A stretch of DNA of 64,000 nucleotides. Origin: an uncultured Ulvibacter sp. Its GTDB lineage: Bacteria > Bacteroidota > Bacteroidia > Flavobacteriales > Flavobacteriaceae. Under the pieces are notes generated by a model, which saw only the letters and a list, made by a program, of their open reading frames with translations, did not search any database and was not told the origin of the DNA. The position numbers were made by a program, and so were the translations under genes. Positions 1,612 to 33,080 of this stretch are shown here, in pieces (within the stretch, counting starts at the first letter, position 1; each line of letters opens with the position of its first letter). Where the stretch lies: positions 22,598 through 86,597 of the forward strand of contig CALIAF010000016.1 in assembly GCA_938041335.1 (NCBI GenBank), given 5' to 3'.

Positions 1612-4600
1612 ATGAAAAACAAAAATATACTTTTTCTATTTCTACTTTTTATGCTATCTGCCTGTGCTTCGTATGCACCTCAATATAAGAATGCCGAAGC
1701 CAATGTTTCTTTTCCAACCCACAAAGAAGTGGCTACGCAATTTTATTTAATAGGCGATGCAGGAAAGTCTCCTTTAGGCGGAATGAGTAAAGGGTTAATA
1801 GCTGCGAAAGCAGGAATAGCTGCGGATAATAATAAAAATGATTATGCCATTTATTTAGGAGATAACATTTACCCAGAAGGGATGCCAAGAAAGGGGGATG
1901 AAGAGCGCAAGTATGCTGAGAACCATCTTGATGGTCAATTAAAAACAGTTCAAGAATTTGCTGGTACAACTTATTTTATTCCAGGAAATCATGATTGGTA
2001 TAATAACGGTTTAGAGGGATTGTCAAGAGAACAAGAATATTTGATAGAAAAGTCAGGCAATCCAGAAATTTTTCAACCTATGAATGGGTGTCCCTTGAAA
2101 AGTATTTCGGTGAATGATGATATTCAAATCATTATTATTGACAGCCAATGGTATCTAGAAGACTGGAACTCAGATCCAAATATTAATAAAAGTTGTGAGA
2201 TTAAATCTCGTGAAAAGTTTTTTATTGAGATTGAATTAGAAATTAGAAAAAACAGGAACAAAACGATTCTGTTTGCCATGCACCACCCTATGTATACTCA
2301 CGGAACTCACGGTGGTTATTATAGGCTCAGCAAACACTTATATCCATTTCAGAATAAAGTGCCCATGCCGCTCTTGGCATCACTTATCACTCAAGTGAGA
2401 ACTCAAGGTGGTGTCTCAGTACAAGACAGATACAATGAGTTGTATAATAAGTTAATGATTAAACTTGGGGCAATTGCAAAAAAGCATCCTCGACTCATTT
2501 TTGCGTCAGGACACGAGCATTCCTTGCATCATATTGAGAAAGATGGGTTGATACAAATTCAATCTGGGAGTGCCTCAAAAGAGTCTGCTGGCGCCTTAGG
2601 CGATGGAGGCGAATTTAGTTATGGAGGGCATGGTTTTGCTGTGATGACTGTTTTTAAAGACGGATCTTCTTGGGTACGTTATTTTGGAGTAGAAGATGGG
2701 AGTACACCCAAACTACTTTTCGAAAAAGAAGTCTTTCCACCTCGAAAAAAAATAGAAACACCCAATCTACCTTATACATTTGAAAACGAAAAGACTACTC
2801 CTATTTATACCAATGATAGTATTACAGAACTGTCTTTTTTTAATACCGTTTGGGGATCTAAATATAAAGAAGTGTACACTACACCTGTAAGGGCAAAAGT
2901 GGCTTCACTAGATTCTTTGTTTGGTGGAGTGACGGTAATCAATGAAAATAGTACTTTAGACTATAAAGCACTGCAATTAAAAGACGCCAATGGTAATCTG
3001 TACCGAATGCGATCTTTAGTAAAAAATTCATTTAAGTTTAAAGAAAGGTTAAACAATAAAACAGCCATTACAGTAGATGAAGATGGCGAAACTAATAGTA
3101 TTGAAAACTTAGATCCTACAGAACGCGACATTTCTTTTTATACCGCTTCGCATCCATATGGGGCCATGGCGCTACCAGTGCTCGCAAGTAAAATAGCTAT
3201 TTTTCAAACAAAGCCCGTTTTGTATTATGTGCCTAAACAACATAAATTAGGGAGATATAATGACCTTTTTGGCGACCAGCTTTATTTGATCTCCCTGGAG
3301 CCAAACGAGAAAAGCGTTGGGGTTAGTGCCTTTAAATATCCCAATGATATAGAAACGACAGATGATATTTTAATTAAATTAAGAAAAAGTGGAAAGATTG
3401 GTGTTGATGAGCCTAACTATATTAAATCGCGACTTTTTGATATGCTTGTCGGAGATTGGGATCGTGAGCAGGACAGATGGCGCTGGGCAGAATATTACAA
3501 TGCAGATAGTTTAAATGTATTTGTTCCCATCCCTAAAAATAGAGATGATGCCTTTGCAAGTTTTGAAGGCAATATTTTGGATGTGGCAAGCTCTATCTTC
3601 GGAAATACAACACAACGTCACACATATAGCGACAACCTAATAGATTTAAAATGGTTTAATAAGGAAGGAATCATTTTTGACCGGGCTTTACTGCATCGTG
3701 CTGGTAGAAACCAATGGAACTTTATAGCAAAACAAATTCAAACCGCATTGACAGATGAAGTTATTGATGAGGCTTTTAATGAAATACCACCCGAAGTTCG
3801 AGACGAGACCCTTTCAGAAATAAAAATGCATCTAAAAGCAAGAAGAGATAACCTTCTAAAAATTGCTGATCGTTATTATAACCTATTGGCAACCTTACAG
3901 AGTATTGAAGCCACAGATAAAGATGATAGTATTGAAGTGACAAGACTACCTGATGGTATAACGAGCGTGAAAATCTTTAGGAGTTATGAGGATCAATCCT
4001 CAAAAATGCTTGTAGAACGATTATTTAATAGTGACGATACAAAAGAACTCTGGATTTATGGGCTTGATGGCAACGACACTTTTATTCTAAAGAACGCCAA
4101 TGAAAATGATACTAAAGGGAGGCTTGTTTTTATAAGATTAATAGGCGGTCATGGCAATGATGTGTTTGATATAAAAGAGGGTAAAAGAACAAAAGTATAC
4201 GACCATGATTCCTTGGAGAATACGGTTTTGCAAAAAGATGATGCCAATTTTAGGATGACAGACATCTATGCTTTTAATACCTATGACTACCGTAAACAAA
4301 TAGACAAAACGAATGATCTTTCTGGCGCGATGAGCTACAACCCTGACGATGGGATTAAAACAGGGTTACAATATTATTTTCAGAAAGACGGTTTTCAACG
4401 TAATCCTTTTAGTTTTAGGCATACATTTAATGGTGCTTATTATGGAGACACACATAGTTTTGATTTTAAATATTCTGGAGAGTATGCAAACATTAGAGAT
4501 GCCAAAAACATTAATTACAGCTTATACGTAACTAGCCCGAACTATATAGAAAATTATTTTGGCTACGGAAATGAAACAAACAACACACAAGACCAGGAAG

Positions 4601-22418: not shown

Positions 22419-23735
22419 ATGAGTGGATTTTTAACAAAACATAATATCGATTTACAGAGCACGACCTTGTTCTTGTTTTTCGTTTTTGTGCTGTTTATTA
22501 CTCCTAATATACCAATGCCTTCTGGTGCCTTAGGTCCTATTGGCCCCATAACTTATATCTTACTTACAGGAATGTTTTTTGTTTTTACAAAAAAGTACAA
22601 TCCTGAAATCACTAGAAGCAGATACTTTAGATATTACTTATTTCTATCTTTTATTATTATTTTATCGGATCTACTTAATTTGATGCTCTATAATTTTAGC
22701 ACCGAGATTAAATTTTTAATGATTCGGGTACTAAACTTTTTTATAGTTCTAGTCTTTGCACAGATGATGATTGTACAAAACATGAAATCAGGTTTGTATG
22801 AAATCCATCCCTTTTTGCTCAAGGTTTTTGTTTGGAGTATTTATTTTATTGCAATCATACTTTTTGGACAAGCTTTAGGTATTATCACTTTTGGAGAGGT
22901 TTATCCAGGTAGAACCTATTTTGGTTTACCACTTCCATTTAATAAGCCTGTAGGGCTTACAGAGCTTAGTGACGGGAAGCTAGGGATTATTATAGCGCCT
23001 ATTATTTTTCTGGCACTATTAGCAAAGAATAATAAAATAAGAATTATAAAGATGAAATGGCCATATTTTGTAACCGTGTTGTTTACACTTTTGCTATTTA
23101 TAATGCAATCAAGAAGTGCGTATGTTGGGCTATTTACAGGGTTAATTGCATTTGTGTTACTCTACCCATCAAAAAAGGTGCGATACTTTTTTGTAGGAGG
23201 TGGAATTGTATTTTTACTCTTCTTATGGATAACAGGTATTCTTTCTTTTATTATTGGAGGTCTTGTAGGAGAAGGGATTTATGCTACTAACGTCAACTCT
23301 AGAAATATTGTTTTGTTTCACGCAATTGATATGTTTAAAGAGTCGCCAGTATGGGGGGTGGGTCACGCAGCGCTTGTGCTGCAGAATAGAATATACGATG
23401 ACGTTTCTGGGTTAGGTTCGCATAATTTATTTGCAGATCAACTGGGAAGTGGGGGATTAATATCTTTCTTACCTTTTATGGCTATATTCTTTATGTTTTT
23501 TTATTATTCCCTAAAGCTTTACTTTATTGGTTTAAAACTAAATAAAATGAAACAAGTTGGTTTTGCAATTTGGTTAATAGCATCTATGATTTACATCATA
23601 ACAGAGTTGTTCTTTTATAGAGGGTTCTATAATGAATATGTATGCTTGTTCTTTACATTTGGGATAATAGCTTGCTTAAATTATACTATTTTGCGTAAGG
23701 AACTAGATGAATTTAATTTAAAAGCCAAGCATTAA
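22419..23735 (+). CDS. O-antigen ligase/polymerase family (Wzy-like) membrane protein
   Basis: This 438-residue protein has about 11-12 hydrophobic segments and one larger periplasmic loop near residues 285-345, containing VNSRNIVLFHAIDMFKESP and WGVGHAALVL. A conserved SR-x-motif region (MQSRSAYVGLFTG) comes before it. This pattern fits the Wzy polymerase/WaaL ligase superfamily. In a block with a flippase and a chain-length protein, polymerase is the likelier role, but ligase cannot be ruled out from sequence alone. Confidence 0.83.
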   Translation: MSGFLTKHNIDLQSTTLFLFFVFVLFITPNIPMPSGALGPIGPITYILLTGMFFVFTKKYNPEITRSRYFRYYLFLSFIIILSDLLNLMLYNFSTEIKFLMIRVLNFFIVLVFAQMMIVQNMKSGLYEIHPFLLKVFVWSIYFIAIILFGQALGIITFGEVYPGRTYFGLPLPFNKPVGLTELSDGKLGIIIAPIIFLALLAKNNKIRIIKMKWPYFVTVLFTLLLFIMQSRSAYVGLFTGLIAFVLLYPSKKVRYFFVGGGIVFLLFLWITGILSFIIGGLVGEGIYATNVNSRNIVLFHAIDMFKESPVWGVGHAALVLQNRIYDDVSGLGSHNLFADQLGSGGLISFLPFMAIFFMFFYYSLKLYFIGLKLNKMKQVGFAIWLIASMIYIITELFFYRGFYNEYVCLFFTFGIIACLNYTILRKELDEFNLKAKH

Positions 23736-23782: not shown

Positions 23783-24601
23783 ATGAATCGTTATTTTTTT
23801 GTTCCAGGTAATAAAATTCACAAAATCCCGTCGTTATCAAAATTTAATATTGATACTATTATCATTGATTTAGAAGACGCGGTAAAATTTTCTGAACGAG
23901 CTGAAATTGTAGCACAGTTGATAGCGCAAAAGGAGGCACTTCAACAACATTTTATCAGGGTGCCACTTCACTCAAGCGATGATAAAATGGACCTGACTAT
24001 TTTAGAAAATCTTGTTCATGGTGGTTTTACTAATTTTGTTTTTCCGAAATTAGAAACAAAGAAAGATGTAACTATTTTGTTTGATACTTTTCCAGATGTA
24101 GCTTTTAAGGCTATACTGCTAGTAGAAACTCCTTCATTATTTTTTGATGCTAGAGAAGTATTGCTTACTTATAAAAAGTATTTTTGTGGTTTAGGTTTTG
24201 GTAGTCACGATATAATGACAGAGATTGGAGGGGCCCATACCTTGAAGAATTTAGAATACCCAAGAATGCAAATGCTATATTTAGCTAAAGCTTGTAAAGT
24301 TGAAGCTATAGATATAGCATCTATGGAACTTAAAAATGAATCCATTTTGCAAGAAGAAATTATTGATGGTTTCTCTAAGGGGTTTGATGCAAAACTCTTT
24401 ATTCACCCTTGGCAGCTAGAAGTAGCAGATAATGCTCCTTTATACACTGATAAAGACCAAGAATGGGCACAAAATGTTTTAGAAGCATTGAGTACTGTAG
24501 CAAATGATGGCGAATTTAATCCAAGAATTATTAATGGTCAAATAATAGAGCGGCCTCATTTAAATAAAGCAAAAAAAATAATAAAATATTTTAAGAAATG
24601 A
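23783..24601 (+). CDS. HpcH/HpaI aldolase / CitE-like lyase, first copy
   Basis: This 272-residue TIM-barrel protein of the CitE-like acyl-CoA lyase group has the usual residues in place: DLEDAV (29-34), Arg59, Lys89, Glu115 in LLVETP, Asp143 in GSHDIMTE, and HPWQ near the C-terminus. Such enzymes cleave or form 2- or 3-hydroxyacyl thioesters such as malyl-CoA or citramalyl-CoA, or hydrolyse them. It overlaps the MaoC gene by 4 bases. A related protein follows at 25059. This is an unusual cargo for a polysaccharide block and suggests a dedicated acyl substituent. Confidence 0.85.
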   Translation: MNRYFFVPGNKIHKIPSLSKFNIDTIIIDLEDAVKFSERAEIVAQLIAQKEALQQHFIRVPLHSSDDKMDLTILENLVHGGFTNFVFPKLETKKDVTILFDTFPDVAFKAILLVETPSLFFDAREVLLTYKKYFCGLGFGSHDIMTEIGGAHTLKNLEYPRMQMLYLAKACKVEAIDIASMELKNESILQEEIIDGFSKGFDAKLFIHPWQLEVADNAPLYTDKDQEWAQNVLEALSTVANDGEFNPRIINGQIIERPHLNKAKKIIKYFKK

Positions 24602-25056
24602 AACCAAGCAACTTAGGTAATTATTATGACGCGTTTGTAGTAGGAGAAACCGTTAAACACTCCTTGTCAAAAACAATATTTGAAAGTGACAACAACTTTT
24701 TTAGCTTACTTACTATGAATCATCATCCGGTTCATTTGAGTTTAGAACATGTTAAAGAGCATCAACACGGGCAAATTTTAGTAGTAGGAACACTAGTTTT
24801 TAGTATTGCCGTAGGTGTAACCGTTCCAGACATTAGTGGCAAAGCGATAGCAAATTTGGAGTATGAAAGTGTAAAGCATTTAGCTCCGGTTTTTATTAAT
24901 GATACCATAAGGTCAGAAACTCAAATATTAGATAAATGGCTAACTAAATCAAATCCTAACCGAGGAATAGTATATGTAGAGACCATTGCCTACAACCAGA
25001 ACGATATAGCGGTGTTATCGTTTAGAAGAAAAGTTTTAATTCCAAAAAATGCTTAA
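24598..25056 (+). CDS. MaoC-like hydratase/dehydratase
   Basis: This 152-residue hot-dog-fold protein has the catalytic-region phrase TMNHHPVHLS (about 39-48). It resembles the MaoC hydratase motif, but Asn stands where Asp is common. Family members add or remove water on enoyl-CoA type substrates. It sits between two CitE-like genes, overlaps the first by 4 bases and is 2 bases from the second, so the three products almost certainly act together. One possible scheme is hydration of a mesaconyl-type acyl-CoA plus carbon-carbon bond formation by the lyases, but that is inference. Confidence 0.85.
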   Translation: MKPSNLGNYYDAFVVGETVKHSLSKTIFESDNNFFSLLTMNHHPVHLSLEHVKEHQHGQILVVGTLVFSIAVGVTVPDISGKAIANLEYESVKHLAPVFINDTIRSETQILDKWLTKSNPNRGIVYVETIAYNQNDIAVLSFRRKVLIPKNA

Positions 25057-25058
25057 TT

Positions 25059-25946
25059 ATGAATGATTATTTATTTAGAAGCTTCTTATTTGTGCCAGCG
25101 CACATAGATAAATTATTAATAAGTGCAACAAAGGCGAAAGCAGATGCATTTCTATTTGATATAGAAGATTCTGTACAACCAGAGTATAATAAGCAAGTAG
25201 CTCGTGATAAACTGGTAGATTACATAAAAAGAGGGGATTTTGATAACGCTCCAGCCTTCGTAAGAGTTAATGATCGTGAAAGTGGTCATCTATTAAAAGA
25301 TCTTATGTCATTAACCATTGATGGTATTGAAGGGTTTATGTACCCAAAATCTAAAAGAGGCGAAGACATTTATTTCTTTGATAAATTGTTAGAGACTATA
25401 GAATATGAAAAAGGTATCGCTATCGGTACATTTAAAATAATACCTCTTATTGAGACCACATCTGCTGTTTTACATGTAGAAGAAATTTGCAGAGCTTCAC
25501 CTCGTGTGGTTGCTGTGGCTTATGGTTCAGAAGATTTTGTTTCAGATTTAGAAGGAATACACGATGAAGAACATCTTAGTCTTTTTATGCCTAGAGCTAA
25601 GATTGCTATGGCCGGTAGAGCAGTAGGTATTCCGCCTATAGACACCGTTCACGTTCGTGTAAAAGACCTTGAAGATCTTGAAGTAAACCTTAAACTTTCT
25701 AGAAAACTTGGCTTTGAAGGGATGATGGCGTTGCATCCTATGGAGTTACCTCTTATTCATCAATATTACAGTCCTTCAGATGAAGAAATAGCGCATTCAA
25801 AAGAGATTATTGAATCAGATATTAAAGCGCGAGAGAGTGGAGTAGGAGTTGCTATTATTAATGGGAAATTTATTGGTCCACCGTTCGTAGCAAAAGCAAA
25901 TAAAATTTTGAAAAAAGACAGGCTTATTAAAAACAGGCATAAATAG
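25059..25946 (+). CDS. HpcH/HpaI aldolase / CitE-like lyase, second copy
   Basis: This 295-residue CitE-like protein has FDIEDSV (33-39), Arg69, Lys97 in MYPKS, Glu132 in PLIETT, Asp159 in YGSEDF and ALHPME. The putative magnesium ligands Glu132 and Asp159 are intact. It is more like malyl-CoA or beta-methylmalyl-CoA lyases in length than the shorter first copy, but this is a judgement by eye. It closes the CitE-MaoC-CitE trio. A weak hairpin with a short T run follows at about 25949-25970. Confidence 0.86.
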   Translation: MNDYLFRSFLFVPAHIDKLLISATKAKADAFLFDIEDSVQPEYNKQVARDKLVDYIKRGDFDNAPAFVRVNDRESGHLLKDLMSLTIDGIEGFMYPKSKRGEDIYFFDKLLETIEYEKGIAIGTFKIIPLIETTSAVLHVEEICRASPRVVAVAYGSEDFVSDLEGIHDEEHLSLFMPRAKIAMAGRAVGIPPIDTVHVRVKDLEDLEVNLKLSRKLGFEGMMALHPMELPLIHQYYSPSDEEIAHSKEIIESDIKARESGVGVAIINGKFIGPPFVAKANKILKKDRLIKNRHK

Positions 25947-26004: not shown

Positions 26005-26667
26005 ATGAAAAAGAAGGTTATTATGATTGGGGGCATAGGTACTGCGGTTAATATCGCGGAACAAATGCAAAATGCGATAGATCACTTTGGTTTAAAGGAC
26101 GAATTTTTAGGCTTTGCCTTTGATGATGAAAATTTTGGTGACGAGATAAATGGATTTCCTATTCTTAGTAAAACAAGAGAAGCATGGGATAAATATGGCA
26201 AGCATAACGATGTCTATTTTATGTATCAGTTATACCGCCCAGATAAAATTAAAGAACGTTCTGGATGGATACCCCAATTTAAGGTGCCTACAGAGCGATA
26301 CTATAATTTTATCCACCCAACTGCAGTAATATGTAGGAGTGCAAAAATGGGTTATGGGAATGCAATACAAGCAGGTACAGTCTTAGGCTCAAACGTGCAT
26401 ATGGGAAATCACAATACATTTAATTCTAATGTATTGTATGGTCACGATACAAAAATGGGTGATCACAATTTTTTTGCAGGCCATTCTCTAATTGGTAGTA
26501 ATATTAAAATGGGAAGTTTTGTGTTTCTAGGACTAAATGCAGCTTTAAACAATCAAATTACCGTAGGTGATAATGTTATGATTGGTATGGGATCTAACGT
26601 TATTAAGTCTTTAGAACCAAATCAATTAGTTATTGGTACACCTGCTAAATTTATTAAAGCCTTATAA
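26005..26667 (+). CDS. PglD/NeuD-like sugar O/N-acyltransferase
   Basis: This 220-residue protein has an N-terminal small Rossmann-like part (VIMIGGIGTAVNIAEQMQ) and a C-terminal left-handed beta helix from about residue 105, built of hexapeptide repeats (for example MGYGNAIQAGTVLGSNVHMG). The His in YGHDTKMGDHN is a likely catalytic base. PglD-type enzymes acetylate the 4-amino group of a UDP-sugar. With PglE-like (29980) and PglF-like (31131) proteins downstream it could complete UDP-N,N'-diacetylbacillosamine, although another acyl group is possible. Confidence 0.88.
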   Translation: MKKKVIMIGGIGTAVNIAEQMQNAIDHFGLKDEFLGFAFDDENFGDEINGFPILSKTREAWDKYGKHNDVYFMYQLYRPDKIKERSGWIPQFKVPTERYYNFIHPTAVICRSAKMGYGNAIQAGTVLGSNVHMGNHNTFNSNVLYGHDTKMGDHNFFAGHSLIGSNIKMGSFVFLGLNAALNNQITVGDNVMIGMGSNVIKSLEPNQLVIGTPAKFIKAL

Positions 26668-26669
26668 TC

Positions 26670-27320
26670 GTGTATAAACATTTTTTTAAGCGAGTTATAG
26701 ACATAGCAATTTCAATAACGGTCTTGTTGGTTTTTAGTCCAATACTACTAGTGGTGAGCATTGTGCTATATATTAGTAATGATGGTGCCATATTTTTCAC
26801 ACAAACCAGAGTGGGAAAAAATGATACGTTGTTCAAGCTTGTTAAGTTCAAGTCAATGAATGATAAGAAAGATGAAAATGGAGAACTTTTAAAAGATGTA
26901 GAAAGACTAACTAAGTTTGGATTATTTATTAGAAAAACATCCTTAGACGAGTTGCCCCAAGTCTTCAATATACTTAAGGGTCAAATGAGTGTAGTAGGCC
27001 CAAGGCCTTTATTAGTAGAATATCTGCCTTATTATAATGAACATCATAAGCGCAGACACGAGGTTAAGCCAGGAATAACAGGGCTTGCACAAGTTAATGG
27101 ACGTAATGGACTTACATTTGGTCAACGTTTTGATTATGATGTAGCCTACGTAGATAGCTTTAACTTTATAAAAGATGTGGTTATTTTATTCCAAACCTTT
27201 GCAAAGTTTTTTAAAAAGAGCGAAATTTCAATTGGTAGACCCATGTCAGAAGTTGATGATATTGGGATTACAAAGGGGCTAGCTTCTCATTATTTTAATA
27301 CAGAGAAAGATGAAGAATAA
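26670..27320 (+). CDS. Initiating phosphoglycosyl transferase (PglC-like), first copy
   Basis: This 216-residue monotopic sugar-phosphate transferase has a GTG start. One N-terminal hydrophobic re-entrant helix (DIAISITVLLVFSPILLVV) precedes the family motifs FKLVKFKSM, RKTSLDELPQ, GQMSVVGPRP, KPGITGLAQVNGRN and FDYDVAYVD. The short form without extra membrane helices is the PglC type. It moves the first sugar phosphate onto undecaprenyl phosphate. It follows the PglD-like gene by two bases and overlaps the next gene by 11. A second such enzyme lies at 29411. Confidence 0.93.
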   Translation: MYKHFFKRVIDIAISITVLLVFSPILLVVSIVLYISNDGAIFFTQTRVGKNDTLFKLVKFKSMNDKKDENGELLKDVERLTKFGLFIRKTSLDELPQVFNILKGQMSVVGPRPLLVEYLPYYNEHHKRRHEVKPGITGLAQVNGRNGLTFGQRFDYDVAYVDSFNFIKDVVILFQTFAKFFKKSEISIGRPMSEVDDIGITKGLASHYFNTEKDEE

Positions 27321-28353
27321 AGAGTTTGGATCTTATTTTTCACTAGAAACTAATCAAAATTGGTTTGTAGATAGTAAAAATGAGCAACCTCTTATTAATG
27401 ATGATATCGCCCTTTGCATCTCTGGGAGAACAGCCATATTTGGTATTCTTAAAATGGGAATTCTTAAAAATGGTTGGGAACGAGTGTATTTTCCACAGTA
27501 TTATTGTCATGAGGTAGTAGATTTTCTTCAAGATCTGCCCATAGAGATTTGCTATTATAGCTTTAATCCATTTATGGATAACGACATCGGGCATGCTTTT
27601 ATAGATGAGAAAACCAGTGTTATAGTTAACGTGGATTATTTTGGTATAACACATGTTCCTATTTCAAATATAAACAACGCCGTAATTATAGATGACATAA
27701 CTTACTCTATACTTTCTTTTACCTCTAGTACTGCGGCATATTGTTTTGCTTCATTACGAAAAGAGTTACCAGTACCAGCCGGTGGGTTTTGTTTTAGCCC
27801 AGCGGGACACGAATTACCTAGTTTTGTGCACAGTGCTCAAGCAGATTCGCTTATTGAAAATAGCTTAATAGCTATGACGATGAAAAAAACTTACCTTGAT
27901 GGGAACAAAGTGGATAAAGAAGAGTTTAGAAAACTATATGCTTTTTCTGAGGAGGGTTTTACAAATACAATGCTAGAGGATGGTGCCTTGCCTATAAAAG
28001 CCTTGCAAGTTCTTAAAAAACTTAATGTTTCAGAAATCATAAAACAGAAACACATAAATATCACACAAATATTAAATACGCTTTCTGATAACTTGACCCC
28101 TTTCTGTTTTAACAAAACATCTTCTGGCTTTGGCTTAGTCTTATATTTTGATGACAAAACTTTACGCGATAGTTTTAGACAAGCGTTGGTGCAAGCTAAA
28201 ATTTACCCTGCCATATTATGGCCAGAACAGCGGCATAAAGAAAGTATAAAAAATGCAGATCAAATGCTTTTTGTGCACGTAGATTATCGCTACAATACAG
28301 ATGATATTGATTACATTTGCACCACGCTAGAAACAATAGATTATGAAATTTGA
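27310..28353 (+). CDS. Divergent DegT/DnrJ-like PLP-dependent protein
   Basis: This 347-residue protein resembles DegT-family sugar aminotransferases only in outline. SGRTAI (38-43) matches the cofactor-phosphate loop, DYFG and VIIDD (Asp129) follow in order, and Lys151 in SLRKELPVPAGG takes the place of the Schiff-base lysine. The rest is divergent and shorter than the 382-residue copy at 29980. It could be an aminotransferase for an unusual substrate. It overlaps both neighbours by 11 bases (phosphoglycosyl transferase and FemAB-like), which ties its function to them. Confidence 0.7.
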   Translation: MKNKEFGSYFSLETNQNWFVDSKNEQPLINDDIALCISGRTAIFGILKMGILKNGWERVYFPQYYCHEVVDFLQDLPIEICYYSFNPFMDNDIGHAFIDEKTSVIVNVDYFGITHVPISNINNAVIIDDITYSILSFTSSTAAYCFASLRKELPVPAGGFCFSPAGHELPSFVHSAQADSLIENSLIAMTMKKTYLDGNKVDKEEFRKLYAFSEEGFTNTMLEDGALPIKALQVLKKLNVSEIIKQKHINITQILNTLSDNLTPFCFNKTSSGFGLVLYFDDKTLRDSFRQALVQAKIYPAILWPEQRHKESIKNADQMLFVHVDYRYNTDDIDYICTTLETIDYEI

Positions 28354-29374
28354 AATACTAGATATTAATGCTCAAAAACAATTGTGGATTGATACTCTTA
28401 AAAAATGTAATAATTATGATTTTTATCATACTGCAACCTATCACAGTATTGAGGAGAATGAACACAGTTCTAGACTTTTTGTAGCCAGTGATGACTCTCA
28501 AACCCTAGCATTACCTTTGGTAATAAGAGAAATTGAAGGCACAGATTTTAGAGATGCTACATCGGTTTATGGGTATGCTGGTCCAGTTGCTTCGGAAGAT
28601 ATGAGTCAAATAAAGAGTATTCTTTTAGATTTCTTTAGACAAGAACTAAAAAGCTTTTTTACAGAACAAAATATTGTAAGTGTTTTTTCACGGTTACATC
28701 CACTTATTGATATCGGTGACTTTTTTAATGATTTTGGTCAAGAAGTACCGCTCAATAAAACAGTTTCTATTGATATTACATTGACGGTTGATGAACAACG
28801 CAGTAAATATAGAAAGTCCAATAAATATGAGATTAACCAATTAAAGAAAAAAGGTTTTGAGGTTATAGAAGCTACCAGCGATGCAGATATAGATGAGTTT
28901 ATACAGATATATACTGAAAATATGGAACGGGTTATGGCCACCAAAAACTATTTCTTTAGTAAAGAATATTTTTATAACTTTCTTAAAAACGAAGAATTTA
29001 AAAATGTACTTCTTCTAGCTAAAAAAGATGAAACTACGGTAGCAGGTGCAATATTTACGGTTAGTAATGATATTATGCAATATCATCTCGCAGGAACCTC
29101 AGAGGCTTTCCTAAAAGAAACACCAATGAAACTTATTCTTGATCAAGCAAGATTAATAGCAAATGATTTAGATTTAAAATACCTGCATTTGGGAGGAGGA
29201 ATAACAAGTAAAGATACGGATGGACTTTTTAGATTTAAGTCTGGATTTTCAGACAGTTTTTATAGATTTTCGGTATGGAACTATATACATAGCCAAGAAC
29301 AGTATGACACCCTTGTAGCAAAGGTTAAAGCAGATCCAGAAAGTAGTTTTTTTCCTTTATATAGATCTGTATAA
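28343..29374 (+). CDS. GNAT/FemAB-like acyltransferase
   Basis: This 343-residue protein appears to contain two GNAT folds in tandem, as in FemAB and BioF2-like (Acetyltransf_6) proteins. Phrases supporting this are KYRKSNKYEINQLKKKGFEV, FIQIYTENMERV, KKDETTVAGAIFTV and LDLKYLHLGGGITSKD. Such proteins attach an amino-acyl or acyl group to an amine. Right after a DegT-like aminotransferase it may acylate the new amino group on a sugar. No membrane segment is visible. Donor (CoA, ACP or tRNA) cannot be told. Confidence 0.78.
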   Translation: MKFEILDINAQKQLWIDTLKKCNNYDFYHTATYHSIEENEHSSRLFVASDDSQTLALPLVIREIEGTDFRDATSVYGYAGPVASEDMSQIKSILLDFFRQELKSFFTEQNIVSVFSRLHPLIDIGDFFNDFGQEVPLNKTVSIDITLTVDEQRSKYRKSNKYEINQLKKKGFEVIEATSDADIDEFIQIYTENMERVMATKNYFFSKEYFYNFLKNEEFKNVLLLAKKDETTVAGAIFTVSNDIMQYHLAGTSEAFLKETPMKLILDQARLIANDLDLKYLHLGGGITSKDTDGLFRFKSGFSDSFYRFSVWNYIHSQEQYDTLVAKVKADPESSFFPLYRSV

Positions 29375-29410: not shown

Positions 29411-29974
29411 TTGCAAAAACGAATCTTTGATATCGCCATTAGTTTAATAGGTTTACTATTAATATGGCCGTTTTTAATTTTGTTGGTATTGTCTAGTGCA
29501 ATTGATACTGCGTCTTGGGGCGTCTTTATCCATAACCGAATAGGTAAAAATGCAAAATCTTTTAAAGTGTTTAAAATTAGAACACTTCATAAAAGAAGTG
29601 GTAAAATATCTTTCTTCGGAAATTTTATAAAAAAGCATAAGTTAGATGAACTACCGCAGCTAATTAATGTATTGTTGGGACAGATGAGTATGGTAGGACC
29701 AAGACCAGACGTGGCAGGATATTATGACCAGTTAGAGGGTGAGGCTAAGAGAATTCTTGATTTAAAACCAGGCATTACAAGCTTAGCCGCATTAAAATAT
29801 TATGATGAAAATGAAACACTTTTAAATGCTGAAGATCCTATAGCATTTAATGATGAAACAATATTTCCAGATAAGGTAAAAATGAATTTGTATTACCATA
29901 ACAATAATACTATATTAGGTGATATGAAGATTATTTATCAGACAATAATTAGAGTGATACTTAGAAATAGTTAA
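29411..29974 (+). CDS. Initiating phosphoglycosyl transferase (PglC-like), second copy
   Basis: This 187-residue PGT starts at TTG. It has an N-terminal hydrophobic helix (DIAISLIGLLLIWPFLILLV), then FKVFKIRT, KHKLDELPQ, GQMSMVGPRPD and KPGITSLAALKYYDE. The KPGIT-S-LA form differs from GLAQVNGRN of the copy at 26670, so the two may use different UDP-sugars. Having two initiating enzymes in one block is unusual. The second may serve another glycan, such as protein glycosylation. Six bases separate it from the aminotransferase gene. Confidence 0.92.
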   Translation: MQKRIFDIAISLIGLLLIWPFLILLVLSSAIDTASWGVFIHNRIGKNAKSFKVFKIRTLHKRSGKISFFGNFIKKHKLDELPQLINVLLGQMSMVGPRPDVAGYYDQLEGEAKRILDLKPGITSLAALKYYDENETLLNAEDPIAFNDETIFPDKVKMNLYYHNNNTILGDMKIIYQTIIRVILRNS

Positions 29975-29979
29975 AATAT

Positions 29980-31128
29980 ATGGAAAAATCTAAAATTTAC
30001 CTTTCTTCACCACATATGGGTGGTACAGAAGAAAAGTATGTGAAAGAAGCATTTGATACGAATTGGATAGCGCCATTGGGACCTAATGTAAATGGGTTTG
30101 AAGCGTCAATAGAGTCGTATCTTGGAGCATCTAAAAACGTAGCTGCCTTGTCTTCTGGAACTGCAGCAATACACCTAAGTTTAATTATATTAAATGTTAA
30201 ACGAGGGGACGAGGTATTATGTCAATCTATGACTTTTTCTGCATCGGCTAATCCTATTTTGTATCAAGGAGCTACTCCAGTTTTTATAGATTCTGAAATG
30301 GATACTTGGAACATGTGCCCAGTTCAATTGGAAAAAGGAATTAAAAATAGAATGGATGCTGGAGTAAAGCCAAAAGCAATAATCATTGTGCATCTTTATG
30401 GAATGCCTTGTAATATTTCAGAACTAAAAAGAGTGGCAGATAGATACTCAATCCCAATCGTGGAAGACAGTGCAGAAGCATTGGGTAGTACATATAAAGG
30501 GGCTAAGTGCGGTACTTTTGGCGACTTTTCAATTTTATCATTTAATGGTAATAAGATAATTACAACCTCTGGCGGAGGCGCAATTGTATGTAAGAATGTT
30601 GATCTAAAAAATAAAGCAGTATTTCTGGCCACACAGGCTAGAGATCAAGCGCCTCATTATCAACATAGTGAGATAGGGTATAATTATAGAATGAGCAACA
30701 TTACAGCAGGTATAGGTCGCGGTCAAATGGAGGTATTAGATAAGCACGTTGGATTAAGACGTGATATGAATGTGTTCTACCAAGATTTATTTGCAACAAT
30801 AAAAGGCGTGATGGTTTTTAAAGAACCTTCAAGTGATTATTTCTCAAACCATTGGTTATCTTGCATTCTAATTGATGAAGCCATTGCTGGTTTTAACCGA
30901 GAAGATGTAAGGCTTGCATTAGAAGAAGAAAATATAGAAGCGAGACCATTATGGAAGCCAATGCATTTGCAGCCTATTTTCAAGAACTATGCTTACTTTG
31001 GTAATGGAGTATCTGATTCGTTATTTCGGGATGGCCTTTGTTTGCCATCTGGATCTAACTTAACTGAAGAAGATAGACTAAGGATTAGTGCAGCTATTAT
31101 GAATATTATTAAAAAACAAACATTATAA
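29980..31128 (+). CDS. DegT/DnrJ/EryC1 UDP-sugar aminotransferase (PglE-like)
   Basis: This 382-residue PLP enzyme has a complete motif set: SSGTAAIHL (about 58-66), VEDSAEALGS with Asp163, and the Schiff-base lysine Lys192 in SFNGNKIITTSGGG. It matches the PglE/LegC group, which aminates UDP-4-keto-6-deoxy-GlcNAc at C4. The preceding step would be made by the PglF-like dehydratase two bases downstream, and the following acetylation by the PglD-like enzyme at 26005. Confidence 0.92.
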   Translation: MEKSKIYLSSPHMGGTEEKYVKEAFDTNWIAPLGPNVNGFEASIESYLGASKNVAALSSGTAAIHLSLIILNVKRGDEVLCQSMTFSASANPILYQGATPVFIDSEMDTWNMCPVQLEKGIKNRMDAGVKPKAIIIVHLYGMPCNISELKRVADRYSIPIVEDSAEALGSTYKGAKCGTFGDFSILSFNGNKIITTSGGGAIVCKNVDLKNKAVFLATQARDQAPHYQHSEIGYNYRMSNITAGIGRGQMEVLDKHVGLRRDMNVFYQDLFATIKGVMVFKEPSSDYFSNHWLSCILIDEAIAGFNREDVRLALEEENIEARPLWKPMHLQPIFKNYAYFGNGVSDSLFRDGLCLPSGSNLTEEDRLRISAAIMNIIKKQTL

Positions 31129-31130
31129 AC

Positions 31131-33080
31131 TTGGGAATTTCAGATAGAATAAAGAAAAAATTATACGAAGGGGATAATAAGCTCAGTCTTCTAGATCAAC
31201 GATATCTCCCGAGATGGATCGTAGTTTTGATAGATTTGGCTCTACTTTTTATTTCGCAACTTATCGTTTATGCCATAATCGAAAATTCTCAGGTTAATTT
31301 TAAAGTCGAGATTTCACTTTTAGCACAATCTGCTATCGTCCTTGGAATTAACCTAATTTGGTTTGTCATATTAAAAACATATGCAGGTATCATAAGACAT
31401 TCTACATTTACAGATGTATTTAAACTCGCATCTTCTTCGTTTGCCACCGCAGCAACCGTATTTATTCTAAGCACTCTTTATAATGCTCTTGCGGGAGATA
31501 AAGTATTTATTACCACATCAATAATACTGTACATGTTTATTTCCTTTACAATTTTATTATTGTTCAGGTTAGCGGTTAAAGAGTCATATATGTTTTTAAA
31601 GAATGCCGCAGCTGGTAGTTTTAAAAAGCGTGTCGCCATCTTAGGAATAGATGACTATACCATTTCATTGGCCCGAGCATTAAGCACAGAGAAAGAATCT
31701 ACATTTAAGTTAATAGGATTTCTTACGAAACACTATAATTCTAAAAACTTAAAAATAATGGGAAAACCTGTTATTCCTGTATTAGATAGTATCACAGAGA
31801 GCATTAAAGATTATAATATAGAGGGAATTTTACTTACTGGTGATTATCTAAAAGGAGTCGAGAAAAATGAAGTGATTGAAGAATGTCTTGCAAATGGCTT
31901 AGAAATTTTTAATGTTCCTAGTTTAGAAAAATGGAATAAAAAAGAAGATATTAAGCAGCAAATAAAACCAATCCAGATTGAAGATCTATTAGAGCGAAAC
32001 CCAATTAAAATAGACAATGATCTGATAAGAAGGGATATAGAAAATAGAACAATTTTAGTGACAGGAGGTGCAGGATCAATAGGTAGTGAGATTGTACGGC
32101 AAATAGCCAAATTTAAACCAAAATTACTTGTCATACTAGATCAGGCAGAATCTGCTTTACACGAATTAGAACTTTTTTTACTACAGAATCATCCTTCGTT
32201 ACAGTTTATTACAGAGCTCGCTAACATAAGTAACATGTATCGATTAGAGATGTTGTTTAATAAATATCAATTTGAGATTGTCTATCACGCAGCAGCCTAT
32301 AAACACGTTCCACTTATTGAAAGAAACCCACATGAAGCAATTTATGTTAATGTATTAGGTACCGTAAATTTAGCCGTGCTATCGGCTAGTAATAAAGTAG
32401 ATAAGTTTGTGATGATTTCTACAGATAAAGCGGTAAATCCTACAAATGTTATGGGTGCTTCTAAGCGTGCCGCAGAAATGTATGTGCAATCATTGCAGCA
32501 CAGTTCAAATAATTTAGGTACACGCTTTATTACAACTCGCTTCGGAAATGTGCTAGGTTCAAATGGATCTGTTATACCTCACTTTAGAAAGCAAATATCA
32601 CAAGGAGGACCAGTAACCGTAACGCATAAGGATATTATTAGATATTTTATGACAATTCCTGAAGCTTGCCAGTTAGTTTTACAAGCAGGTACAATGGGCA
32701 ATGGTGGTGAGATTTATGTTTTTGATATGGGGAAACCGGTGAAAATTTTAGATCTAGCAAAAAAGATGATTCAATTATCAGGATTAGAACCATATGAAGA
32801 TATTGATATCAAAATTACAGGATTGAGGCCTGGTGAAAAACTATATGAGGAGCTAATAAGTGATAGCTCAACATCATTACCTACACACCACCCAAAAATT
32901 ATGATTTCAAAAGTACCAACAGGTGAATTTGATACGGTAAAAGTAAAAGTAAAAGAGATTATTAAATACGCAACACGATATAACGATCATAACGTTGTAA
33001 AGCTTTTAAAAGAACTAGTTCCAGAATATAAAAGTGAAAATTCTAAATTTGAAAAACTAGACACTCCATCAAAGAACTAA
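31131..33080 (+). CDS. Membrane-bound UDP-GlcNAc 4,6-dehydratase (PglF/WbpM/CapD-like)
   Basis: This 649-residue protein has a TTG start. Four N-terminal membrane helices (about 28-50, 65-82, 98-118, 128-148) are followed by a CoA-binding-like domain and an extended SDR domain. The SDR domain shows TGGAGSIGSE (311-320), TDKAVNPTN (431-439) and a catalytic M441-x3-K445. Met replaces the usual Tyr, as is known for the WbpM/PglF group of large dehydratases. It makes UDP-4-keto-6-deoxy-GlcNAc, the start of bacillosamine- and QuiNAc-type sugars. Confidence 0.94.
   Translation: MGISDRIKKKLYEGDNKLSLLDQRYLPRWIVVLIDLALLFISQLIVYAIIENSQVNFKVEISLLAQSAIVLGINLIWFVILKTYAGIIRHSTFTDVFKLASSSFATAATVFILSTLYNALAGDKVFITTSIILYMFISFTILLLFRLAVKESYMFLKNAAAGSFKKRVAILGIDDYTISLARALSTEKESTFKLIGFLTKHYNSKNLKIMGKPVIPVLDSITESIKDYNIEGILLTGDYLKGVEKNEVIEECLANGLEIFNVPSLEKWNKKEDIKQQIKPIQIEDLLERNPIKIDNDLIRRDIENRTILVTGGAGSIGSEIVRQIAKFKPKLLVILDQAESALHELELFLLQNHPSLQFITELANISNMYRLEMLFNKYQFEIVYHAAAYKHVPLIERNPHEAIYVNVLGTVNLAVLSASNKVDKFVMISTDKAVNPTNVMGASKRAAEMYVQSLQHSSNNLGTRFITTRFGNVLGSNGSVIPHFRKQISQGGPVTVTHKDIIRYFMTIPEACQLVLQAGTMGNGGEIYVFDMGKPVKILDLAKKMIQLSGLEPYEDIDIKITGLRPGEKLYEELISDSSTSLPTHHPKIMISKVPTGEFDTVKVKVKEIIKYATRYNDHNVVKLLKELVPEYKSENSKFEKLDTPSKN

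Follow-up and report, generated by a model that had tools for sequence, protein, structure and literature searches.

What do homologues of central-carbon enzymes do in the middle of a polysaccharide block? This question is raised by a stretch of 64,000 nucleotides (hereafter the window) from an uncultured Ulvibacter sp. (contig CALIAF010000016.1), in which two CitE-like acyl-coenzyme A (acyl-CoA) lyase genes flank a MaoC gene. The members of this trio are the following:

23783..24601, + strand: CitE1, 272 amino acids (aa), CitE-like (HpcH/HpaI) acyl-CoA lyase homologue; Pfam HpcH_HpaI, 64.8 bits, over cut-off
24598..25056, + strand: MaoC, 152 aa, hot-dog hydratase/dehydratase; Pfam MaoC_dehydratas, 59.5 bits, over cut-off
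25059..25946, + strand: CitE2, 295 aa, CitE-like acyl-CoA lyase homologue; Pfam HpcH_HpaI, 127.7 bits, over cut-off

The order CitE-MaoC-CitE and its coordinates, with an overlap of 4 bases between CitE1 and MaoC and a gap of 2 bases between MaoC and CitE2, had been given in a preliminary description of the sequence and are borne out by the open reading frames (ORFs) and by Pfam. The analysis presented here indicates that the trio probably acts as a portable cassette for the synthesis of an unusual acyl-CoA, from which the adjacent NeuD/PglD-type transferase would put the acyl group on the amine of a nucleotide sugar.

Arrangement, co-divergence and distribution of the trio

Carrier loci were sought by context within Bacteroidota samples, and 14 loci were read: the window, Mesonia hippocampi DSM 29568 L004, L010-L013, L048-L052 and L061-L063, which include organisms inside and outside the class of the window. 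Two loci with weaker matches (L053 and L054), in which BLAST to the window revealed no trio-type MaoC, were used only as controls. The names of neighbour genes come mostly from BLAST comparison with the window or from the appearance of the sequence, and some of these genes were scanned against families. The preliminary description had raised the question of whether the trio is common in unrelated contexts without polysaccharide genes; in the Bacteroidota samples searched, genes for polysaccharides or nucleotide sugars surround the trio in all 14 loci. The order CitE1-MaoC-CitE2 is complete in 13/14 loci, a NeuD/PglD-type gene directly follows CitE2 in 13/14, and the full order CitE1-MaoC-CitE2-NeuD/PglD is found in 12/14. 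In the 11 loci whose spacing was measured, with start codons assigned mechanically, adjacent trio genes overlap by up to 20 bases or lie up to 11 bases apart.

Some loci depart from this arrangement. L063 (10070-12081) has MaoC-CitE2-NeuD/PglD without CitE1, and a search of its genome with the CitE1 profile likewise revealed no trio-type CitE1; the MaoC of L063 retains Asn and His in the motif TMNPNPLH. An obligatory CitE1-CitE2 heteromer sharing lid residues was also considered, and is weakened by this locus. In L012 (7282-12185), a pseudaminic-acid locus, CitE1 and PseG are each split over two frames, which may reflect decay, a frameshift or a sequencing error. The NeuD/PglD ORF of L004 is short at both ends.

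The modularity of the trio was analysed with pairwise identity matrices of the 12 loci that have all four genes, applying 2000 label shuffles to each pair of genes. Within the trio, rho was 0.71 for CitE1-MaoC and 0.73 for CitE1-CitE2 (0/2000 shuffles reached these values) and 0.84 for MaoC-CitE2 (2/2000 shuffles), versus -0.02 (1054/2000), 0.11 (340/2000) and 0.04 (704/2000) when CitE1, MaoC and CitE2, in this order, were compared to NeuD/PglD. This shows that CitE1, MaoC and CitE2 have diverged together and that the transferase varies independently of them. The trio therefore resembles a portable module for acyl-CoA synthesis that is combined with one transferase or another.

The transferases follow another pattern. 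Among the 13 NeuD/PglD proteins, close groups have a predicted sugar in common: the window, L004 and L048 (70-74% identity), L012 and L062 (77%), and L051 and L063 (76%). The L010 and L061 proteins, of the same predicted sugar type, are 45% identical, and the closest relatives of the L011, L013, L050 and L052 proteins do not exceed 41%. One genus was sampled with 58 genomes, every one of which offered first-look candidates; the NeuD/PglD of the window (E<=1e-20) matched the 3 trio genomes there and gave one further match, weak and partial. The NeuD/PglD of L063, compared with 79 genomes from another family, recovered one at 32% identity besides its own genome. These transferase types are about one third identical to one another and appear tied to the cassette despite this divergence. 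TIGR03570 is the best model wherever scored, always under its subfamily cut-off of 160.8 bits: 121.6 in the window, 146.9 in L012, 149 in L062 and 150 in L051. The proteins have an invariant GH pair, whose His we take to be the catalytic base, as in Campylobacter PglD.

Trio-type CitE1 or MaoC is sporadic among relatives (5/397, 6/395, 1/380, 3/58 and 2/79 genomes); the samples partly overlap and, therefore, the counts have not been summed. The first figure corresponds to Flavobacteriaceae, including the window's own genome, where a profile of CitE1 homologues and the MaoC sequence (both at E<=1e-30) recovered the same 5 genomes with CitE1 and MaoC adjacent, so the trio is not a chance association. 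In the phylum sample CitE1 (E<=1e-20) matched 38/395 genomes, 6 of them above 200 bits, of which 4 were labelled 'same phylum', that is, beyond the class of the window; the remaining 32 matches, at <=97 bits and mostly to open frames near 400 aa, were left out of the counts. In the class sample (380 genomes) MaoC was found only in its own genome, and the last two figures refer to trio-type genes in one genus and in another family. A search of 39 relatives with the single CitE1 sequence found the window's own genome alone (1/39); a separate scan of genome contigs with this sequence gave one locus, and an alignment query might have reached further. The named CitE1 homologues among the matches listed (120 of 149) belong to Bacteroidota.

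Folds, active-site residues and possible reactions

CitE1 and CitE2 are assigned to the CitE-like superfamily by the HpcH/HpaI triosephosphate isomerase (TIM) barrel, found by Pfam in both and by a structural model in CitE2. This model, built from 26 sequences (mean predicted local distance difference test (pLDDT) 90.4; predicted template modelling score (pTM) 0.88), has CLYBL and malyl-CoA lyases as its nearest folds in PDB. The window's own genome contains three PF03328 matches, the two trio CitE genes and another one below cut-off.

Residues were counted in the 120 closest homologues listed per protein, of 149, 7356 and 4613 found for the three proteins; the CitE1 list includes the window protein. 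Among these matches, the CitE1 Mg ligands E115 and D143 are kept in 120/120, the ED pair of the IDLED motif (E31, D32) in 118/120 with 2 gaps and the substrate Arg (R59) in 119/120 with 1 gap, and E132, D159, E36, D37 and R69 of CitE2 are each kept in 120/120. The lid position is occupied by Glu256 in CitE1 (Glu in 120/120) and by Gly273 in CitE2 (Gly in 120/120). The "intact acidic ligands" of the preliminary description therefore hold for the Mg ligands of both proteins, but the lid Asp, which it did not mention, is replaced in both. The lid Asp is conserved in the CitE-like superfamily (Asp299 in the Rhodobacter malyl-CoA lyase), with Glu only in a malyl-CoA thioesterase cluster, according to passages of PMC3832036. 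All the structures to which CitE2 was aligned (1sgj, 4l9y, 5ugr, 5vxc and 3qll) have Asp at this position. In 25 aligned control loci, mostly of one ~400-aa family rather than a broad sample, 24 were readable and showed 22 Asp, 2 Glu (L024 has Glu) and 0 Gly; L003 (poor alignment, Glu printed) was dropped, as was a Gly printed for L044 from the wrong frame, the true gene having Glu when read by eye.

In MaoC, Asn41 (Asn in 120/120) occupies what we take to be the position of the catalytic Asp of R-specific hydratases, which is Asp in 1q6w and 4ffu, and His46 is kept in 120/120. This replacement, too, is not mentioned in the preliminary description. A similar Asn-His pair is present in the second domain of 4e3e and of 8hgn, the latter named beta-methylmalyl-CoA dehydratase, and this common feature suggests a dicarboxylic acyl-CoA as the putative MaoC substrate.

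Curated models place MaoC nearest to RipB/Ich (111.6 bits, cut-off 340) and CitE2 nearest to CitE (177 bits) and RipC (127.6 bits, cut-off 375); CitE1 scores 68.7 bits with the RipC model. Together with the folds near CLYBL and malyl-CoA lyases, these nearest models would fit a displaced catabolic operon for itaconate or citramalate (RipABC-like), or a piece of a methylaspartate or 3-hydroxypropionate pathway, merely located inside the polysaccharide block. The trio resembles the RipB/RipC (Ich/Ccl) system of itaconate degradation in its pair of MaoC and CitE-like proteins with the same folds, but it differs in having a second CitE paralogue and in the loss of the lid Asp from both. Moreover, all scores are far under the equivalog cut-offs, those of NCBIfam for RipB and RipC not being reached by MaoC, CitE1 or CitE2; amino-sugar or polysaccharide genes surround the trio every time; and catalytic residues are replaced in 120/120 homologues among the matches listed. 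BLAST to the window and family scans of a minority of the neighbouring ORFs revealed no CoA-transferase or CoA-ligase gene beside the trio in any of the 14 loci. Considering scores, context and residues, itaconate/citramalate degradation has been rejected, and a displaced catabolic operon of any of these kinds is quite unlikely.

The trio was also compared to malyl-CoA/beta-methylmalyl-CoA lyases and to beta-methylmalyl-CoA dehydratase (mesaconyl-CoA hydratase). The TIM barrel, the Mg ligands, the substrate Arg and the MaoC Asn-His pair are alike, but the lid residue is Glu (CitE1) or Gly (CitE2) and the Pro and Trp located beside the 2-oxo acid are not kept when the alignment is read by eye (Ala and Leu in CitE1, Val and Met in CitE2). 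In malyl-CoA lyase this Pro and Trp crowd the methyl group of pyruvate, according to passages of PMC3832036, and the replacements would weakly suggest room for pyruvate or larger acids; the RipC structure 3qll retains the Pro, which weakens this argument. Since catalytic residues are replaced, it is unsafe to equate the trio enzymes, above all CitE2, with the malyl-CoA and citramalyl-CoA lyases of central carbon metabolism.

For the proposed cassette, the following steps may be envisaged. The CitE-type enzymes would condense a short acyl-CoA with pyruvate or glyoxylate as the 2-oxo acid, so that no CoA ligase is needed, MaoC would interconvert hydroxy and unsaturated acyl forms, and the NeuD/PglD-type transferase would move the acyl group to a sugar amine, which in the window would be the 4-amine of UDP-Qui2NAc4N (UDP, uridine diphosphate). 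Our best single guess for the acid would be a hydroxydicarboxylic acyl group of the citramalyl or malyl type, either as such or dehydrated. A 2-hydroxyglutaryl product was also considered and set aside, because CitE chemistry on acetyl-CoA would give another skeleton. The CitE2 step is likely to differ from that of a standard lyase because the usual lid Asp is gone; speculatively, it could be a condensation in which the enolate comes from loss of CO2 instead of from a base.

A bolder version is only a tentative possibility. CitE2, having lost the lid Asp as acid-base residue, could catalyse a reaction of a class so far without example among CitE-fold enzymes, such as a decarboxylative aldol reaction between a 2-oxo acid and malonyl- or methylmalonyl-CoA. 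Together with the Asn-His MaoC, CitE2 could form an acyl-CoA plug-in cassette moved among UDP-bacillosamine, deoxythymidine diphosphate (dTDP)-3-amino, dTDP-4-amino and pseudaminic-acid pathways, altering the surface antigen without any change in the sugar backbone. Alternatively, the trio might supply or scavenge a small metabolite (propionyl-CoA, glyoxylate), or CitE1 and CitE2 might be thioesterases, with no product put on the sugar. Passages of PMC3832036 report Glu at the lid position, as in CitE1, for the malyl-CoA thioesterase cluster, but the near-strict pairing with an acyltransferase-type gene over several sugar types would be left unexplained, and this explanation is very improbable.

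Neighbouring genes and predicted amino sugars

The genes that surround the trio in the window are the following:

22419-23735: Wzy_C protein (Pfam/NCBIfam family scans)
26005..26667, + strand: predicted NeuD/PglD/VioB-type hexapeptide sugar N-acyltransferase; best model TIGR03570 NeuD/PglB/VioB, under cut-off
26670..27320, + strand: PglC-like initiating sugar-phosphate transferase (family scans)
27310-28353: 347-aa protein with no Pfam or NCBIfam match
28343-29374: FemAB-like protein (family scans)
29411-29974: second, short PglC-like sugar transferase, 187 aa (family scans)
29980..31128, + strand: DegT-family sugar aminotransferase, LegC/PseC/PglE-like (family scans)
31131..33080, + strand: PglF/WbpM-like nucleotide-sugar 4,6-dehydratase (Polysacc_synt_2)

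The DegT aminotransferase is predicted to make the amine to be acylated, and a DegT aminotransferase is present in 11/14 fetched stretches, L004, L010 and L062 (the last only 5.3 kb) being the others. A UDP-bacillosamine-type route is predicted for the window, L048, L061, L010 and L004, with L004 the least supported: the window, L048 and L061 have PglC-like genes, the L048 and L061 aminotransferases are 68-69% identical to that of the window, and a PglC-like gene is also present in L004 and, together with a PglF-like gene, in L010. The FdtA-type isomerases of L051 and L063, accompanied by RmlA and RmlB in L051, predict dTDP-3-amino sugars. For L011 and L013, whose aminotransferases have DesI as best model under its cut-off, with RmlA and RmlB in L011, we infer a dTDP-4-amino sugar; L050 looks dTDP-type, and L049 and L052 were left unassigned. 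Pseudaminic acid is predicted for L012, where the trio and NeuD/PglD lie amid PseB, PseC, PseF and PseI (over cut-off) and the split PseG, and for L062, where PseF exceeds its cut-off and a PseG-like gene falls short. PseH, the N-acyltransferase step, gave no match (E<=1e-10) in the 7 scanned ORFs of L012, to which this search was limited.

The preliminary description had proposed that the trio builds an acyl group for PglD-like or FemAB-like enzymes further down. The recurrence of the trio in unlike sugar pathways supports the donor idea, and the PglD-like partner stands, with NeuD/PglD after the trio, or after its CitE1-less form, in 13/14 loci. The FemAB-like role does not fare as well, because a homologue (BLAST, E<=1e-5) was found in only one locus besides the window, L048. 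An alternative retains this part: the acyl-CoA would serve another acceptor, with FemAB-like or ATP-grasp enzymes directing it to a hydroxyl or to an amino-acid side branch, and NeuD/PglD would be an ordinary acetyltransferase. It is consistent with the FemAB-like genes of the window and L048, with the PylC-like ATP-grasp genes of L010 and L061 and with L049, where the trio lacks an adjacent NeuD/PglD. Nevertheless, FemAB-like and ATP-grasp genes occur in a minority of loci, NeuD/PglD is directly downstream in nearly all of them and its type is nearly confined to trio genomes in the 58-genome genus sample, so this explanation seems unlikely.

Supply of an unusual acyl group for a sugar amine is the probable role of the trio, and several points weigh against it. 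To our knowledge, no enzyme activity or polysaccharide structure has been described for any carrier. CitE1 may be dispensable, as it is absent from L063 and split in L012, and CitE2 without the lid Asp may make no C-C bonds at all. The transferase might use acetyl-CoA, since TIGR03570 is named a sugar acetyltransferase family. In L049 the trio is followed by a WbmS-like deacetylase and then by a 303-aa hexapeptide transferase. Finally, the transferases of L011 and L013, both assigned to dTDP-4-amino sugars, are unpaired, and their nearest relatives (40-41%) belong to other sugar types.

Other observations concern the neighbourhood. The PylC-like ATP-grasp gene follows the PglC-like gene in L010 (7591-9495, with a PALP-family enzyme between) and in L061 (12757-13767); ligation of an amino acid onto a free carboxylate of the acyl group would be possible. 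L004 has another NeuD/PglD-like gene (2470-3138), 51% identical to that of the window, beside an ATP-grasp gene and a gene like that at 27310-28353. The 27310-28353 protein has a counterpart adjoining FemAB in L048 (40% identity) and a weak one in L004 (22%); its AlphaFold model (3 sequences, mean pLDDT 44.4) was unusable and has not been used. The block at 9439-34411 of the window also includes an SLBB export protein, an adenosine 5'-phosphosulfate (APS) kinase, a 3'-phosphoadenosine 5'-phosphosulfate (PAPS)-reductase-family protein, an EF-Tu-family GTPase (CysD/CysN-like), two sulfotransferase-like proteins (one under cut-off), Wzx-like, Wzy_C and Wzi proteins, and it looks like a sulfated capsule or exopolysaccharide locus.

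Known N-acyl groups and meaning of the proposed cassette

Strain-variable genes for unusual N-acyl groups are known in the same phylum. According to passages of PMC6519341, O-antigen loci (wfp) of Flavobacterium psychrophilum differ in the R-group genes for Qui2NAc4NR, R1 being 3,5-dihydroxyhexanoyl, and in two strains pglD homologues are predicted to attach R2 or R3, whose chemistry is unidentified there. The putative cassette is like these R-group cassettes, with strain-variable genes, a predicted unusual N-acyl group on Qui2NAc4N and a pglD homologue, in that it lies in a polysaccharide locus, is adjacent to a sugar N-acyltransferase gene and is sporadically present. The R1 genes, unlike the trio, resemble type II fatty-acid synthesis in those passages, and the main text of PMC6519341 never uses the words MaoC, dehydratase or lyase. 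Marine O-antigens contain amide-linked malic (4-malyl) and 2-hydroxyglutaric acids, and that of Flexibacter maritimus has 2-hydroxyglutar-5-yl on a Qui2NAc4N derivative, according to passages of PMC3210612 and PMC4052302. Substituents of this kind might be products of CitE-type chemistry, and they occur on a sugar of the same type in the same phylum; they are known from chemistry, with no genes linked to them in the PMC3210612 passages. The literature searches made found no CitE/MaoC trio tied to malic or hydroxyglutaric N-acyl groups or to a surface polysaccharide, a statement that holds for these searches.

If the proposed function is true, the diversity of Bacteroidota surface sugars would be modular at the level of the acyl donor, with one three-enzyme cassette serving several amino-sugar pathways through different transferases. 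The trio would also provide a genomic marker for an N-acyl substituent so far without genes, possibly the hydroxydicarboxylic amides of marine O-antigens, and it would reveal a CitE-fold family whose altered active site calls for a new mechanism.

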